Assembly: GCA_029887765.1 (NCBI GenBank)
Contig: JARXPF010000005.1
Coordinates: 1 to 32,735, forward strand
Direction of reading: 5' to 3'
From: Candidatus Methanomethylicota archaeon
Lineage (GTDB): Archaea; Thermoproteota; Methanomethylicia; Methanomethylicales; Methanomethylicaceae
Length of the DNA stretch: 32,735 nt
In this document: one piece after another, positions 224 through 6,247 of the stretch
How positions within the stretch are numbered: the first letter of the stretch is position 1
How the letters are laid out: each line of letters starts with the position of its first letter
Translations under genes and position numbers: made by a program
Notes under the pieces: model-generated
What the model was told of the DNA's origin: nothing
Seen by the model: the letters and a program-made list of their open reading frames with translations, nothing else
The model's database searches: none

Positions 224-1594
224 ATGAGTGGAGAAATTATAGTTAAAGAGGTAGAGAAAAAAATAGAAAGAGGCCTAAGTCTTCACAATCATATAACTGG
301 ATTAGGACTTGATGAAAAATTAAGAGCAATTCATATAGCAGATGGTTTAGTTGGTCAAGAAGAAGCAAGAGAAGCTTCAGGAATTATGGTAGAACTCATT
401 AAAAAAGGAAAAAGAGCAGGGCATGGATTATTACTTATTGGCCCACCTGGGACTGGAAAAACTGCAATTGCTGTAGGTATGGCTAGAGAACTTGGTAGAG
501 ATGTACCATTTGTTTCAATATCAGGAAGTGAAATTTATGGAACAATAATAAAGAAAACTGAATTTTTAACACAAGCAATGAGAAGGGCTATTGGACTTAG
601 ATTAATAGAACAAAGAGAAGTTTATGAAGGTGAAGTAACTTCATTAGAAATTGAAAAAGCACCCCATCCTTATAATCCCTATGTTCAAGTCGCACTTGGT
701 GCATTATTAACATTAAAAACTAAAAAAGAAGAGAAAACCATAGAAGTTAGTGATAGAATTGCAAATCAATTATTAAGATTAAATATTAGAATTGGTGATG
801 TTATAGAAATAGATGCTGAAACTGGAAGAATAAATAAAATTGGAAGAAGTAGAGAAATTGAAAGTAAATGGAAAGGAGAATATAGAGTAGGGAGGCTTGT
901 AGAAAGACCTGATGGTCCAGTATTTAAAACAAAGAAAATTTCTCATACACTTTCACTTCATGATATTGATATGGCGAATATAAGAGTAGGAAGAGCATTA
1001 TTATTTAGAGAAGAAGAAATAACTGATGAAGTAAGAATGAAAGTAGATGAAGAAGTAGAGAAATTAATTAAAGAAAAGAAGGCTCAATTAGTACCAGGAA
1101 TATTATTCATAGATGAAGCACATATGCTTGATATAGAAGCCTTTTCTTTTTTAAATAGAGCATTAGAACAAGAATTTGCTCCACTTCTTGTTTTAGCAAC
1201 TAATAGAGCTATAACAAAAATTAGAGGAACTGATGTATTAGCTCCTCATGGCATACCAATTGATATGCTTGATAGATTACTTATAGCAAAAACAAAACTT
1301 CCTTCAAGAGAAGATATTATGAAAATTTTAGAAATAAAAGCAATAAATGATGGTATTGAACTTGATAAAACAGCACTTGAATTTCTTACTGAAATTGGAG
1401 TAAAACATACATTAAGATATGCAGCACAACTTTTACAACCATCTAAAATAATAGCAGAAATAATGAATAGTAATATTGTTAAAATAGAGCATATTGAAAG
1501 AGCTAAGAATGTATTCATGGATGTAAGAGATTCAATGAAATATTTAGAAGAAGAATTAAGTAAAGATCCTATTTTCTCTCAATTTTTAAAATAA
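224..1594 (+). CDS. TIP49/RuvB-like AAA+ ATPase (RuvBL family)
   Basis: AAA+ ATPase of the TIP49 (RuvBL1/RuvBL2, Pontin/Reptin) family; 456 residues is the usual length. The Walker A motif GPPGTGKT lies near residues 73-80. The family insertion domain follows, then a Walker B segment ILFIDEAHML near residue 300 and a sensor region LVLATNRA. In eukaryotes these proteins form hexameric rings acting in chromatin remodelling and in box C/D snoRNP assembly; the archaeal role is poorly known. The start is ATG at 224 because GGTGAT (214-219) sits four bases upstream; TTG 212 and GTG 215 are in frame but lie within or before that SD. A box C/D sRNA begins about 35 bp after the stop on the same strand, a striking match to the eukaryotic role. 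The family call is firm; the cellular role is inferred. Confidence 0.93.
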   Translation: MSGEIIVKEVEKKIERGLSLHNHITGLGLDEKLRAIHIADGLVGQEEAREASGIMVELIKKGKRAGHGLLLIGPPGTGKTAIAVGMARELGRDVPFVSISGSEIYGTIIKKTEFLTQAMRRAIGLRLIEQREVYEGEVTSLEIEKAPHPYNPYVQVALGALLTLKTKKEEKTIEVSDRIANQLLRLNIRIGDVIEIDAETGRINKIGRSREIESKWKGEYRVGRLVERPDGPVFKTKKISHTLSLHDIDMANIRVGRALLFREEEITDEVRMKVDEEVEKLIKEKKAQLVPGILFIDEAHMLDIEAFSFLNRALEQEFAPLLVLATNRAITKIRGTDVLAPHGIPIDMLDRLLIAKTKLPSREDIMKILEIKAINDGIELDKTALEFLTEIGVKHTLRYAAQLLQPSKIIAEIMNSNIVKIEHIERAKNVFMDVRDSMKYLEEELSKDPIFSQFLK

Positions 1595-1629
1595 ATTTTT
1601 AAATTTCTTTTTTATAAATATTAATTTAA

Positions 1630-1682
1630 ATGAAGAGAACTCCCGGCACTGAAATATAGATGAAGAATACTTACCCATCTGA
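1630..1682 (+). ncRNA. box C/D guide sRNA (methylation guide)
   Basis: All four boxes are present with archaeal spacing: box C ATGAAGA (1630-1636), 12-nt guide (1637-1648, GAACTCCCGGCA), box D' CTGA (1649-1652), 7-nt linker, box C' ATGAAGA (1660-1666), 12-nt guide (1667-1678, ATACTTACCCAT), box D CTGA (1679-1682). The C boxes depart from RUGAUGA by one base, but the same variant is used in the second sRNA of this window (8379-8432). Such RNAs bind L7Ae, Nop5 and fibrillarin and direct 2'-O-methylation of the target base paired to the fifth guide base before box D or D'. The guide complements are TGCCGGGAGTTC and ATGGGTAAGTAT; I could not assign rRNA or tRNA targets by eye. It follows the RuvB-like gene by 35 bp and may be processed from its transcript. 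Confidence 0.87.
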
Positions 1683-1725
1683 TTTTTATTGAATTTAATT
1701 TTAAAAATCTTAATATTATAATTTC

Positions 1726-1739
1726 AATTTCATGAAATT
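1726..1739. repeat. palindrome AATTTCATGAAATT, copy 3 of 3
   Basis: Perfect 14-bp palindrome with the same TTTCATGAAA core as 20-33 and 148-161, here downstream of the sRNA. It lies in the 278-bp noncoding stretch 1683-1960, in which I also see a hairpin at 1827-1849 and no convincing gene. Confidence 0.4.
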
Positions 1740-1826
1740 AAAAATGAATAAGTATTGATTTAATCATAAACAATAATGATTGTTATTAATAAAATGTCAA
1801 TAATATTATTAAAATTTTTAACAATA

Positions 1827-1849
1827 TTACTATGTTATAAGCATAGTAA
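1827..1849. repeat. 8-bp stem, 7-nt loop inverted repeat
   Basis: TTACTATG (1827-1834) pairs perfectly with CATAGTAA (1842-1849) around a 7-base loop. It lies between the C/D sRNA and the convergent tRNA gene and may act in transcript ending or be incidental. There is no T-tract directly after it on either strand. Confidence 0.35.
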
Positions 1850-1960
1850 GTGAATAAGAGGTCTAAGGAAAAACTCTTTATCATAAAAAATACATCTATT
1901 AATAATTCATAAAATATTAATAATTCACAAGCTTTTATATAAAATTACATACATTTTAAA

Positions 1961-2034
1961 GGGCCTGGCGGGACTTGAACCCGCGATCCTCGGCTTCGGA
2001 AGCCGATGCTTTATCCTTACTAAGCTACAGGCCC
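1961..2034 (-). tRNA. tRNA-Arg (anticodon CCG)
   Basis: Read on the minus strand, a 74-nt cloverleaf: acceptor arm GGGCCTG paired with CAGGCCC, anticodon stem TCGGC/GCCGA around loop TTCCGAA giving anticodon CCG, and T arm GCGGG/CCCGC around TTCGAAT. It decodes CGG arginine codons. There is no intron and no encoded CCA tail. It is convergent with the RuvB-like/sRNA unit and lies 10 bp beyond the 3' end of the small zinc-ribbon membrane protein gene on the same strand. Confidence 0.97.
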
Positions 2035-2044
2035 TAAAATTATA

Positions 2045-2275
2045 TTAAAGAGAGTAATAAATAATCATTATAACAAGTATTGTAAAAATAGCAATTAAGT
2101 AATAAGTCATTATTTTTTGAAATTTTTTCTCACGTTGTAATTTAGATATTTCTTTTTGATATTCTGGTTTACATTTTAAACAATAATTTCTACTTGAAAC
2201 TTCTATCATTCTTCCACAATATATGCAATGTTTATGAGGATAAATGTAAGGTTTTTCTTCTTTTAATTGACTCAC
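2045..2275 (-). CDS. small zinc-ribbon, single-TM protein (DUF2116-like)
   Basis: A 76-residue protein. Cys pairs CIYCG (about residues 18-22) and CLKC (about 33-36) form a probable treble-clef or zinc ribbon. A basic, helical linker follows, then one C-terminal transmembrane helix (about residues 54-74). This layout matches the archaeal DUF2116-type proteins of unknown function, probably a tail-anchored protein with a cytosolic zinc domain. The start is GTG (2273-2275), only two bases after the htpX stop, so it is almost surely co-translated with htpX. The family match is from memory of the pattern. Confidence 0.72.
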   Translation of the reverse strand: MSQLKEEKPYIYPHKHCIYCGRMIEVSSRNYCLKCKPEYQKEISKLQREKKFQKIMTYYLIAIFTILVIMIIYYSL

Positions 2276-2277
2276 TA

Positions 2278-3129
2278 TTAACCTACTCCCATAGCCATAG
2301 CTTTCAATCTTTCAATTCTCTTCCAAGTAGGAGGATGTGTTGAAAATAATTCAAGTAAAGAATCTCCTCTAAATGGATTCACTATCCATAATGGACTTGT
2401 AGATGGATTTATATTAAGCATAGCTCCAGATTTAACAAATCTTTCTATTTTTTCTAAAGCACTTGCAAGTGATAAAGGTTTTTTAGAAATCATAGCACCA
2501 CTTTTATCTGCTTCATATTCCCTACTTCTAGAAATTGCCATTTGTACTAATAAAGCAGCAAATGGTGCTAATAAACTTAGTAAAAATGCTAATATTCCAG
2601 TATTTCTATTTCTACTATCACTAAAGAATATACTATATCTTCCTATTAATGCTAAATAACTTATAGCTCCAGCAATTGTAGCAACTATAGATTGAATTAA
2701 AACATCTCTATTCTTTATATGAGAAAGTTCATGTGATATTACACCTTCAAGTTCATCTTCATTTAAAATTTCTAATAAGCCTTTAGTTACAGCAACTACA
2801 GAATTCTTTGGATTTCTTCCTGTAGCAAAAGCATTTGGAATACGAGAATTTATTATTGCTACTTTAGGTTTAGGTAAACCAGCTGATATAGCTAATTTTG
2901 ATACAATTCTATGAAGTATAGGATATTCAGATTCATTAACAATTTTAGCTCTTGTCATAGAAAGTACAATTTTATCACTATAGAAATAAGCTATAAAATT
3001 CATTATTCCAGCTAATATTAATGCAAATAATGCTACAGATTCAGGAGCACCAAACATTAATCCTATTACATATCCTAAACCTACAAATATTAATGTTAAG
3101 AATAACATCATAAGAGCAAGTCTAAACAT
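2278..3129 (-). CDS. htpX: HtpX-family membrane zinc metalloprotease (M48)
   Basis: A 283-residue integral membrane protease that degrades misfolded membrane proteins. Two N-terminal transmembrane helices lie at about 5-27 and 31-50. The catalytic zinc motif is HELSH at 133-137, two further hydrophobic segments follow, and the third ligand is a Glu in the SREYEAD segment. Length and order are those of HtpX. The ATG at 3127-3129 has a strong SD (AGGAGA, about 3135-3140). It lies between the ABCE1 gene (25-bp gap) and the DUF2116-like gene in a minus-strand run that probably starts at the acidic-protein promoter near 5490. The call is firm; substrates are unknown. Confidence 0.93.
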   Translation of the reverse strand: MFRLALMMLFLTLIFVGLGYVIGLMFGAPESVALFALILAGIMNFIAYFYSDKIVLSMTRAKIVNESEYPILHRIVSKLAISAGLPKPKVAIINSRIPNAFATGRNPKNSVVAVTKGLLEILNEDELEGVISHELSHIKNRDVLIQSIVATIAGAISYLALIGRYSIFFSDSRNRNTGILAFLLSLLAPFAALLVQMAISRSREYEADKSGAMISKKPLSLASALEKIERFVKSGAMLNINPSTSPLWIVNPFRGDSLLELFSTHPPTWKRIERLKAMAMGVG

Positions 3130-3153: not shown

Positions 3154-4962
3154 TTAAGAACCACTATTTAAATTTTCAACTTCTTGAATTTGAATATAAT
3201 AATATTCATTAATTTCTTTTTGATATCTATCAAGCCAAGATCCTTTTTTATTTACTCTTGGTCTTCCAGTATCTGGATCTCTTCTAAAAGTTATATCTAC
3301 TTCTTTAAGAAATTGATTCATACCTTTTCTTAATGTAGTAGGAGGATTAGCATAACCAATTTTTCCAGGATTTCCTGTAAATACCATAATACTATCTGCC
3401 ATAAGATCAATGGCAACTACATCATGTTCAACTACGAGAGCTGCAGCTCTTTTTTTCTCTACAACTCTTTTTATACATCTTGCTACAGCAAGTCTATGTT
3501 CTACATCTAAATGAGCTGTAGGTTCATCTAAAAGAAATAATTTTGCATCTTTAGATAAGCATAAAGCTACTGAAACTCTTTGTAATTCACCTCCACTTAA
3601 AGTATTAACTCTTCTTTCAAGAAGAGGTTCTATTTCTAAAGGAAGGAGAATTTCTTCTTTAAACCATTGATCATTTAATAATTCTGAATTTATTAATTCT
3701 TTTATAGTTTTATCAGTATTTGGAAAAACATATTGAGGTTTATAGCTTATATTTATTCCAAATTTTTCAATATAACCTTCTTTTGGTTCAATTAATCCTG
3801 CAATAGTTTTAACAAAAGTAGTTTTACCAATACCATTTGGACCTACAACTCCTACAACTTCTCCTTTATGTATTAATCCTGGCATTGCAATTAATTCAAA
3901 ATTTTCAATATTAACTTTAAAAGAAGGCCATCTTAATAATAAATCCTCACTTTTCCATTCTCTTGGTATAGGAGAAAGATTAAATTTTATTTCATAAGGT
4001 CTAAATCTTATATTTTCATCTGGTATATAACCATTTATATATAAATTTATACCAACTCTAACTCCATGAGGTTTTGAAACTATTCCATAAACTCCTGGTT
4101 TACCATAATATATACATACATAATCAGATAAATAATCTAAAACTGCTAAATCATGTTCAGCTACTAATACATATTTAGATTCTTTTGCAAGATCTCTTAA
4201 AAGAGAAGCCATTCTTAATCTTTGATATATATCAAGATAACTTGATGGTTCATCAAATATATAAACATCAGCATCTCTAAGAGCTGCTGCAGCTATGGCA
4301 ACTCTTTGTAATTCACCTCCACTTAATGCATGAATATCTCTATCCATAATTGAATTAAGTGAAAGTTTTTCACAAACTTCTTTTAAAACTCCTCTTTCAT
4401 CTATGCGTTTTAATATTTCACCAACACTACCTATAATATTCTTTGGAGCTTCATCTATGTATTGAGGTTTCATAACTACTTTTAATTTTCCTTCAGAAAG
4501 TTTTTTAAAATAATTATAAAGCTCAGAACCTCTAAAATATTTTAATATAGATCGCCAATCTGGAGGACAATCATAAAAACCAAGATTTGGTTTTATAGCA
4601 CCTCCAAGTATTTTTAATGATGTAGATTTTCCTGCACCATTTGGTCCTAATAATCCTAAAATCATTCCTTCTTTTGGAATTGGTAATCTATAGAGCTTAA
4701 ATGAATTTGGACCATATCTATGAACACATAATTCTTCTAATTCATCTGGAAGATTTACTATATTTATTGCATTAAAAGGACATTTTTTAATACAAATTCC
4801 ACAACCAGTACAAAGTTGTTCAGATATTATTGGACGTTTTAATTCTTCATCAAATTTTATTGCCTCAGCTCCACTTCTTACTATTGGACAAAATTTTATA
4901 CATTCTCTATTACATTTTCCGGGTTTGCAGAAGTCCATATCGACAACTGCAACCCGGATCAT
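3154..4962 (-). CDS. abce1: ABCE1/RLI ribosome-recycling ATPase
   Basis: Soluble twin-ATPase that splits ribosomes after termination, acting with aRF1/aPelota. Two [4Fe-4S] clusters are bound at the N-terminus: C12, C17, C21, C25 with C51, C54, C57, C61. The first ATPase has Walker A GPNGAGKST (about 106-114) and signature LSGGELQR. The second has GPNGIGKTT and another LSGGELQR, and D-loops and His switches (AEHD, VEHD) are visible. At 602 residues it is full length. The ATG has SD GGTGATT just upstream. It begins 8 bp after the TFS/Rpb9-like gene, linking a transcription and a translation factor in one unit. Identification is essentially certain. Confidence 0.97.
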   Translation of the reverse strand: MIRVAVVDMDFCKPGKCNRECIKFCPIVRSGAEAIKFDEELKRPIISEQLCTGCGICIKKCPFNAINIVNLPDELEELCVHRYGPNSFKLYRLPIPKEGMILGLLGPNGAGKSTSLKILGGAIKPNLGFYDCPPDWRSILKYFRGSELYNYFKKLSEGKLKVVMKPQYIDEAPKNIIGSVGEILKRIDERGVLKEVCEKLSLNSIMDRDIHALSGGELQRVAIAAAALRDADVYIFDEPSSYLDIYQRLRMASLLRDLAKESKYVLVAEHDLAVLDYLSDYVCIYYGKPGVYGIVSKPHGVRVGINLYINGYIPDENIRFRPYEIKFNLSPIPREWKSEDLLLRWPSFKVNIENFELIAMPGLIHKGEVVGVVGPNGIGKTTFVKTIAGLIEPKEGYIEKFGINISYKPQYVFPNTDKTIKELINSELLNDQWFKEEILLPLEIEPLLERRVNTLSGGELQRVSVALCLSKDAKLFLLDEPTAHLDVEHRLAVARCIKRVVEKKRAAALVVEHDVVAIDLMADSIMVFTGNPGKIGYANPPTTLRKGMNQFLKEVDITFRRDPDTGRPRVNKKGSWLDRYQKEINEYYYIQIQEVENLNSGS

Positions 4963-4970
4963 GGAATCAC

Positions 4971-5249
4971 CTAATCTTCAGTTTCTTCAGTTTCTTCTTC
5001 ATAACTCTCAAGAAATACTTTATAATATTCAGCCATGAGTTCTTTTTCTTCTTCTTTTCTCTTAATTTTCACTGGTTCTTCAACAATTAACATTTTTCTT
5101 CTTTTTCCTTCTTCAACTTGTTGAACTATTTTATAACTTTCACTTTTTTCTAAATCTTTTTCAAAACCACATGATTTACACTTAAGAATAACTTTGTCAT
5201 TTTTTTTCACTGGCATTAATAATTTTCCACAATTTTGACAAAACTCCAA
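4971..5249 (-). CDS. TFS/Rpb9-like protein with N-terminal zinc ribbon only
   Basis: A 92-residue protein. The N-terminus carries the zinc ribbon of archaeal transcript-cleavage factor TFS / Rpb9 / RpoM (CQNCGKLL ... CKSCGF, about residues 4-28). The usual C-terminal ribbon, with the catalytic Asp-Glu hairpin of TFS, is absent. Instead there is a charged helical stretch ending in a glutamate-rich tail (residues 82-92). It therefore cannot stimulate RNA cleavage in the known way and may be a polymerase-binding regulator or Rpb9-like subunit. The start is taken as TTG (5247-5249) with SD AGGTGA six bases upstream. It is preceded by the acidic repeat protein and followed by abce1. The fold call is likely; the function is open. 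Confidence 0.72.
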   Translation of the reverse strand: MEFCQNCGKLLMPVKKNDKVILKCKSCGFEKDLEKSESYKIVQQVEEGKRRKMLIVEEPVKIKRKEEEKELMAEYYKVFLESYEEETEETED

Positions 5250-5284
5250 TATTATTCACCTAAAAAATTTTAAAGAAAGGAGGA

Positions 5285-5440
5285 TTACCATTCCTCCTCC
5301 TCTTCTTCTTCGAATTCCTCTTCCTCTGGCCATTCCTCTTCTTCGAATTCCTCTTCTTCTTCAAGCCATTCTTCTTCGAATTCTTCCTCTTCTTCAAATT
5401 CTTCTTCTTCGAATTCCTCATCTAGTTCTGGTTGGAACAT
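5285..5440 (-). CDS. 51-residue glutamate-rich protein of 11-residue repeats
   Basis: An open frame of 51 codons from ATG (5438-5440) to TAA (5285-5287) with a textbook SD GGAGGT (5450-5455) and a TATA-like element at about 5484-5491. The product is nearly all Glu with spaced aromatics. Phe falls at residues 10, 21, 32 and 43, exactly 11 apart. A second hydrophobic residue sits 4-8 residues later: F15, W25-L26, W37, W51. The DNA shows the same period: GAATTC at 5312, 5345, 5378 and 5411, each 33 bp apart. The 11-residue spacing suits an amphipathic helix or hendecad coiled coil with a strongly anionic face. I recognise no family. It heads the TFS-like/ABCE1/HtpX unit. The SD, promoter and position argue that it is real; its function is unknown, though binding a basic surface (ribosome, polymerase, histone) would fit. 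Confidence 0.82.
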   Translation of the reverse strand: MFQPELDEEFEEEEFEEEEEFEEEWLEEEEEFEEEEWPEEEEFEEEEEEEW

Positions 5441-5449
5441 GGATTTTTT

Positions 5450-5491
5450 ACCTCCAAGCAAAGGATTTTGGCAAGTTTGTTCTATTTAAAT
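5450..5491 (-). promoter_or_regulatory. promoter and SD for the acidic protein/ABCE1 unit
   Basis: On the minus strand a TATA-like TTTAAATA (5484-5491) lies about 43-50 bases before the ATG, and the SD GGAGGT occupies 5450-5455. A start of transcription near 5460 would give a short leader. The rest of the 5441-5728 gap is AT-rich and shows no further gene, only the presumed promoter of the THUMP gene on plus. Confidence 0.6.
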
Positions 5492-5728: not shown

Positions 5729-6247
5729 TTGAAGGAATTTAATATAATATTAACTAGTAGAAGAGGAAATGAAAATCAATGTTCAAAAGAATTTATAATT
5801 TTAGCTAAAAAAATTGGTTATGAAGTTGATATTGATAGAACAAAATTCTCTGGAGTTTTATTATGTAAAATAGAAGGCGATCCTATAGAATTTGTAAGAA
5901 AAGCTAGGAAAATAATTGAAGAAGATCCTTGGAGATTTAGATATATTCAAAGAATTATTCCTATTCAATGGATATTAGATTTTAATTCTTTAAAAGAAAG
6001 AGCAAAATCTATTGAAATTCCTGAAGGATGTTCATTTAAAGTAGTAGTTAATAAAAGAGGAAGTGAAATTAGTAGTAAAGAAATTATTGAAACAATAGCT
6101 TCATTTATAAATAGAAAAGTTGATTTAGAAAATCCAGATTATATTATACAAATTGAAATTATAGAAAATTATATAGGAATGTCAATAATAAAAAAAGAAG
6201 ACATAATTTCTATTCCAAAAATACAAGAAGAAATATTATCTAAATAA
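5729..6247 (+). CDS. THUMP-domain RNA-binding protein (Tan1/THUMPD1-like)
   Basis: A 172-residue protein. The N-terminal half (about 5-75, beginning NIILTSRRGNE) resembles the N-terminal ferredoxin-like part of THUMP modules. The C-terminal half (about 95-172: FKVVVNKRGS ... NPDYIIQIEII ... IGMSII) is a typical THUMP domain, which binds the tRNA acceptor region. A stand-alone THUMP protein of this size matches the Tan1/THUMPD1 adaptor for tRNA N4-acetylcytidine formation. The start is taken as TTG 5729 with AGAGG about 9 bases upstream; an ATG at 5725 is out of frame and stops after five codons. The last 12 bp overlap the 3' end of the convergent cgi121-like gene. The THUMP call is fairly sure; the acetylation role is inferred. 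Confidence 0.78.
   Translation: MKEFNIILTSRRGNENQCSKEFIILAKKIGYEVDIDRTKFSGVLLCKIEGDPIEFVRKARKIIEEDPWRFRYIQRIIPIQWILDFNSLKERAKSIEIPEGCSFKVVVNKRGSEISSKEIIETIASFINRKVDLENPDYIIQIEIIENYIGMSIIKKEDIISIPKIQEEILSK

Follow-up and report, generated by a model that had tools for sequence, protein, structure and literature searches.

A conserved acidic-aromatic micropeptide gene adjoining ABCE1 in Thermoproteota

An overlooked gene at the head of an ABCE1 transcript

The DNA analysed here is a stretch of 32,735 nucleotides from a Candidatus Methanomethylicota archaeon (assembly GCA_029887765.1, contig JARXPF010000005.1, positions 1 to 32,735; hereafter the window), whose minus strand carries at 5285..5440 an acidic-aromatic micropeptide gene that very probably encodes a conserved, translated protein functionally tied to the ribosome-recycling ATPase ABCE1 (Rli1). 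The frame comprises 51 codons and a TAA (ATG at 5440-5438, TAA ending at 5285) and is confirmed as a real gene that gene finders have overlooked. Its product, MFQPELDEEFEEEEFEEEEEFEEEWLEEEEEFEEEEWPEEEEFEEEEEEEW, consists of 35 Glu, 6 Phe, 3 Trp, 2 Pro, 2 Leu and one each of Met, Gln and Asp, has a net charge of about -36 and contains no Cys, Lys or Arg; without Lys or Arg it cannot be cut in trypsin-based proteomics, one reason why it has escaped notice. A Shine-Dalgarno-like GGAGGT (5450..5455, minus strand) lies 9 nt 5' of the ATG, and a TATA-like TTTAAATA (5483..5490, minus strand) also lies 5' of the gene; the acidic unannotated protein, ATG frame and both signals described in the original prediction are thus borne out. 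The frame is not a product of chance, because its richest 40-residue stretch holds 32 acidic residues and 60 order-2 Markov simulations of the window reach at most 10. An RNA element was rejected as an alternative, since the window gave no Rfam match between 2000 and 8000. GAATTC recurs at 5312, 5345, 5378 and 5411, a spacing of exactly 33 bp, and the regular spacing of Phe is equally exact, as had been predicted. However, the exact 33-bp/11-residue repeat that had also been proposed does not hold, as the units between the GAATTC sites differ (FEEEEFEEEEE, FEEEWLEEEEE, FEEEEWPEEEE and FEEEEEEEW; 79% matches by TRF). It was rejected as a functional unit, the spacing being absent in relatives and particular to the window genome.

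The micropeptide gene is the first of a transcript that continues, on the same strand, with a zinc-ribbon gene (4971..5255), ABCE1 (3154..4962), which encodes an ATPase with an iron-sulfur (Fe-S) domain and is the micropeptide's conserved neighbour, and an HtpX-like M48 peptidase gene (2278..3129), the last of the local operon. A divergent THUMP-domain gene (5729..6247, plus strand) is often the upstream neighbour in relatives. The position at the head of the operon therefore stands as originally described, but the label of TFS/Rpb9-like for the zinc-ribbon gene does not hold in its TFS part. Its product, assigned to Pfam Zn_ribbon_RPB9, has a single ribbon with an acidic tail and four Cys only, and scores 37.2 bits against the transcription factor S (TFS) model TIGR01384, for which the cut-off is 64.75. 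As two ribbons are required, it was rejected as a full TFS; a better TFS candidate of the window genome is G000:C4:22030 (genomes, loci and families are cited by our handles G, L and f).

The micropeptide family and its linkage to ABCE1

A HMMER search with the window peptide returned only the query itself and one match at E=0.575, and no match was found in Pfam, NCBIfam, PHROGs or the PDB; the HMMER miss is regarded as a false negative because the sequence is of low complexity. In the literature searched, no EEEWEEE-type micropeptide was found, the two text matches being plant NAC papers. The family has escaped notice because it is short and its low-complexity composition hides it from homology searches. 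Relatives were instead recovered by position: the zinc-ribbon loci of 60 relatives were fetched and their upstream sequence read, and almost all genomes of the window's family have an acidic W/F frame 5' of that gene (e.g., MYKIEEEEFEEEWEEEEEEFEEEWPEEEEEWEEEEEWPEEEEEFEEEEEW and MEEDFDEWPEDEEDDEWPEDEEDDEWPEDEEDDLEEDEW), which is the outcome set beforehand as the test of the original prediction. The DNA pattern GANGANGANTGGNNNGANGANGAN, equivalent to (E/D)3-W-x-(E/D)3, detects the family directly because GAN codes for Glu or Asp. In the window's class it matches 34 of 40 genomes, and in the phylum as a whole 267 of 398; the reversed pattern, used as a control, gave zero and near-zero matches, respectively. 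A pattern match is not always a micropeptide; matches read in several dozen families were mostly free peptides (e.g., MVFEEEWEEEEWEEEEWEEEW and MLFEEEWEEEEEEEWWEEEEEWEEEEW). In the ammonia-oxidiser-like genomes of f12, both matches read (L141, L142) fall in the tail of a 510-residue protein, in which a membrane segment is followed by FLRKSK..EEEWEEEE. Because part of the sample (the window's family) had been gathered via the zinc-ribbon gene, 85,000 named genomes were scanned as an independent check with a peptide pattern ignorant of ABCE1. Its archaeal matches were mostly micropeptides, and most adjoined ABCE1 (56 of 75 peptides with ABCE1 within 4 kb), as in Bathyarchaeota, Desulfurococcales, Sulfolobales, Nezhaarchaeota, Methanomethylicota and Ignisphaera; the bacterial matches were unrelated frames.

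The family so defined consists of free-standing peptides of about 20-55 residues, built of Glu/Asp with Trp/Phe spacers, in which the last residue is nearly always Trp or Phe. It is conserved at the level of the protein. The 23-aa peptide MEEEWEEWEEEEEWEEEEWEEEW is identical in five genomes of f6 despite 3-12 nucleotide differences over 72 positions, all of them synonymous, which argues strongly that it is the protein that is being conserved. The Shine-Dalgarno is retained in relatives as GGAGG or GGGGG, and a TTTAAATA/CTTAAATA-type promoter-like box is retained at a similar distance. That the frame might be no gene at all, but a purine-rich or repeat artefact, would agree with its low complexity and with its want of a match in any protein library. 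However, the synonymous-only change, the ribosome-binding site, the promoter box and the conserved position refute this in practice. Micropeptides of extreme composition can thus be strongly conserved yet invisible to standard annotation.

For 116 of the 157 non-redundant peptides, ABCE1 is found no more than 4 kb away; in 108 of these it is directly downstream on the same strand, and in 7 it is divergent. In f3 and some f6 genomes the peptide is followed by ABCE1 without an intervening zinc ribbon. In Sulfolobaceae-like loci the peptide ends about 30-50 bp 5' of ABCE1, and in G110 (L173) the distance is 50 bp; in f49 an F/L version adjoins ABCE1. The arrangement does not depend on the zinc-ribbon gene, and TFS was rejected as the micropeptide's functional neighbour, since the peptide stays with ABCE1 where no zinc-ribbon gene intervenes. 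Other arrangements occur: in f11 (Desulfurococcales-like) transcription of the micropeptide gene runs away from the zinc-ribbon and ABCE1 genes, and a convergent gene follows the micropeptide in f34, f22, f65 and f9.

These orientations bear on the alternative that the product is a cis-acting leader peptide, whose N-terminal poly-acidic run would destabilise the ribosome (intrinsic ribosome destabilisation, IRD) and couple ABCE1 expression to recycling capacity. N-terminal D/E runs destabilise ribosomes in bacteria and yeast (PMC9718836), and the acidic leader MgtL uses IRD, which the ABC-F protein EttA modulates (PMC11282234). As in MgtL-type leaders, the acidic run is N-terminal and upstream of a gene, and the same-strand order in 108 of the 116 linked cases is that of an upstream, co-transcribed leader; by analogy, translation of such an acidic sequence may well disturb ribosomes. 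However, the 7 divergent members and those of other lineages with a convergent next gene cannot act in cis on a downstream gene, so that a leader role is not general and the gene need not act in cis. The terminal aromatic residue and the identical peptide over synonymous change also fit a functional product, and we regard the leader as distinctly improbable.

C-terminal aromatic residues and a possible mode of action

Among the 157 non-redundant peptides, the last residue is Trp or Phe in 150, the second-last is Glu in 156, and the third-last is Glu in 150 and Asp in 4; in searches made without requiring a C-terminal aromatic, 75 of 82 peptides nonetheless end in Trp or Phe, as compared with 13% aromatic residues elsewhere in the chain. 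A terminal Trp, together with ABCE1 as the client, makes it attractive to regard the peptide as an Fe-S maturation adaptor, in which the C-terminal Trp would work like the targeting complex recognition (TCR) tail with which eukaryotic Lto1 delivers Rli1/ABCE1 to the Fe-S machinery. Fe-S clients include ABCE1, and it is for this client that Lto1 uses a C-terminal Trp (PMC4523923), so that the likeness to Yae1-Lto1 extends to a C-terminal Trp/Phe after an acidic residue and to the tie with Rli1/ABCE1 (PMC4523923, PMC10623007). However, the TCR signal is [LIM]-[DES]-[WF]-COOH (PMC10623007), and although the family has the C-terminal W/F and a second-last residue within D/E/S, its third-last residue is acidic rather than L/I/M. 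In addition, the micropeptide has no deca-GX3 domain, the TCR signal is reported to be missing from archaeal homologues (PMC10623007), and an adaptor of this kind would give the internal Trp repeats no role. An Fe-S adaptor is thus quite unlikely.

Aromatic residues are mostly spaced 4-6 residues apart, and the conserved core of the family is 57% Glu. The original prediction had envisaged an anionic amphipathic helix, which is not supported: across 150 family members hydrophobic periodicity is strongest at around 75 degrees, corresponding to roughly 4.8 residues, and the signal at 100 degrees falls short of random. A fixed amphipathic helix was accordingly rejected, with no periodicity at the helical 3.6 residues. 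The sequences look instead like those of a flexible multivalent chain.

No known relative of the family can be shown; there are precedents for what the micropeptide may work like. The C-terminal tail of the ribosomal stalk protein aP1 (KKEEEVDLSGLSGMFGF), acidic and then hydrophobic, binds aABCE1 and other translation factors (PMC6791870), and resembles the micropeptide as a short, flexible acidic segment with hydrophobic or aromatic anchors. However, aP1 belongs to the ribosome and has, besides its Leu/Phe tail, an N-terminal domain for dimerisation, whereas the micropeptide is free-standing with repeated Trp; the window peptide, at 51 aa and acidic throughout, belongs to no Pfam family and has neither the N-terminal dimerisation domain nor the hinge of aP1. 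The eIF3j protein has an acidic motif whose Trp inserts into a hydrophobic pocket (PMC2824034), and eIF3j assists ABCE1 recycling (PMC7196836, PMC12794334). The Trp centred in an acidic motif of eIF3j/Hcr1 is found, as repeats, in the micropeptide family, but eIF3j is larger, with a C-terminal half beyond that motif, and the target mapped for its Trp is the RRM of eIF3b; the micropeptides, of about 20-55 aa, stop at the acidic repeat and have nothing corresponding to that half. Archaea are not known to have eIF3.

These two analogies, with a stalk tail that binds ABCE1 and with an acidic-Trp docking protein that assists it, favour a trans-acting partner, and it is quite plausible, if still tentative, that the micropeptide is a direct partner of ABCE1 or of ribosome recycling, acting in trans as a multivalent linear-motif peptide. 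We infer its expression, binding, target site and effect as follows. The micropeptide gene, present in one copy and of ancient origin within the phylum Thermoproteota, would be translated into a short, disordered acidic chain with Trp/Phe every 4-6 residues and a free C-terminal aromatic. This product may act in trans on ABCE1 or on the 30S/ABCE1 post-splitting complex, where the aromatic residues, the last one above all, could enter hydrophobic pockets while the acidic residues contact a basic rim, and binding might then tune ABCE1 recruitment, ATPase activity or release. The earlier suggestion of docking on a basic surface such as the ribosome survives here in part, in that the ABCE1 linkage would favour docking on a translation component. 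Little is known about archaeal modulators of ABCE1, an essential protein of deep conservation; if this model is correct, a phylum-wide ABCE1-linked peptide would fill a gap in ribosome recycling.

The ABCE1 sequences were also compared. Median net charge is +4 in peptide-bearing lineages versus 0 in peptide-less ones, and the positions differing most between the two are 330, 77, 435, 117 and 82; the charge comparison is confounded by lineage and is not used as support. In G047 (L337, 343-3120) and G144 (L338, reverse complement, 343-3126), ABCE1 carries an intein-like insertion of about 310 residues within its Fe-S motif (CIGCGIC / CVKKCPF); the insertion starts with LDPNTPV and ends with AVGLIVHN.

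Acidic-tryptophan proteins beyond ABCE1

Several observations weigh against a direct partnership with ABCE1. For about one quarter of the peptides no adjoining ABCE1 is seen (Pyrobaculum-like f18, and f34, f22, f35 and f4), although for some of these the fetched locus ended too early. The ammonia-oxidiser-like f12 and f48 have ABCE1 without any such peptide upstream, so the peptide is not universally needed, and a gene neighbourhood can persist by descent. In Asgard archaea the acidic-Trp pattern occurs in 59 of 119 genomes, and the loci read hold many micropeptides, with other matches within larger proteins; none of the loci read has ABCE1 beside the match. Finally, acidic-Trp micropeptides in Asgard, Bathyarchaeia-like and f4 genomes often adjoin D0, our name for an unannotated protein of some 250 residues with a strongly basic composition (isoelectric point 9.4-11.1, net charge +9 to +37; L130 3013-3768, L131 3170-3922, L074 4268-5065, and also L393, L396, L400, L402, L404 and L405), and this points to acidic partners as a wider class. 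D0 and the micropeptide possibly form an acidic/basic gene pair. The predicted model of D0, a confident one (mean pLDDT 90.6), resembles a pair of Cas2-like ferredoxin folds with an additional helical bundle, the best Cas2-type match being weak (E 0.045, probability 0.99).

The D0 loci lend themselves to the alternative that the micropeptide is a charge-neutralising chaperone for basic RNA- or DNA-binding proteins or, as the original prediction had also suggested, a nucleic-acid mimic, its linkage to ABCE1 reflecting co-regulation with translation genes and no specific contact. Besides the net charge of about -36 and the proximity to D0, this would agree with G040, which carries one ABCE1-linked and one D0-linked peptide. 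However, ABCE1 at a net charge of +4 is not strongly basic, and a fixed C-terminal aromatic with Trp every 4-6 residues exceeds what mere charge would call for, so that we consider this explanation unlikely. It is possible, though less likely than not, that Thermoproteota have a dedicated, previously unseen ABCE1 micropeptide cofactor, a functional counterpart of eIF3j, which together with its Asgard acidic-Trp relatives might constitute an old class of archaeal linear-motif proteins connected with translation.

Acidic Trp sequences also occur as fusions. In f4, a LysW-like zinc ribbon is joined to a long acidic Trp tail (L072 3941-4198, L073 3988-4254, L074 3830-4108), the variants scoring 29.3 bits against LysW PF21344 (cut-off 27). 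This joining is what the family has in common with the LysW/ArgW carrier proteins. However, LysW has an N-terminal zinc ribbon and an EDWGE-type C-terminus, whereas the f4 variants end in W and the window peptide lacks both Cys and a zinc ribbon and is not directly flanked by biosynthesis genes. The fusions lie downstream of two related genes of apparently TldD/TldE-like type. In f18 (L183, L184; Pyrobaculum-like), the micropeptide precedes a small same-strand gene starting GRHVYGNLYGCD, a start reminiscent of an S-adenosylmethionine decarboxylase proenzyme. The nanoarchaeon Nanobsidianus stetteri Nst1 encodes the acidic-Trp protein MDWEDLKRKVEELKMMAPKESEDWDEEWEEDWDEGEEDWEEDWEEEEW (L255, about 4651-4803) with no ABCE1 adjoining, and the archaeal host lineage might have this protein as well.
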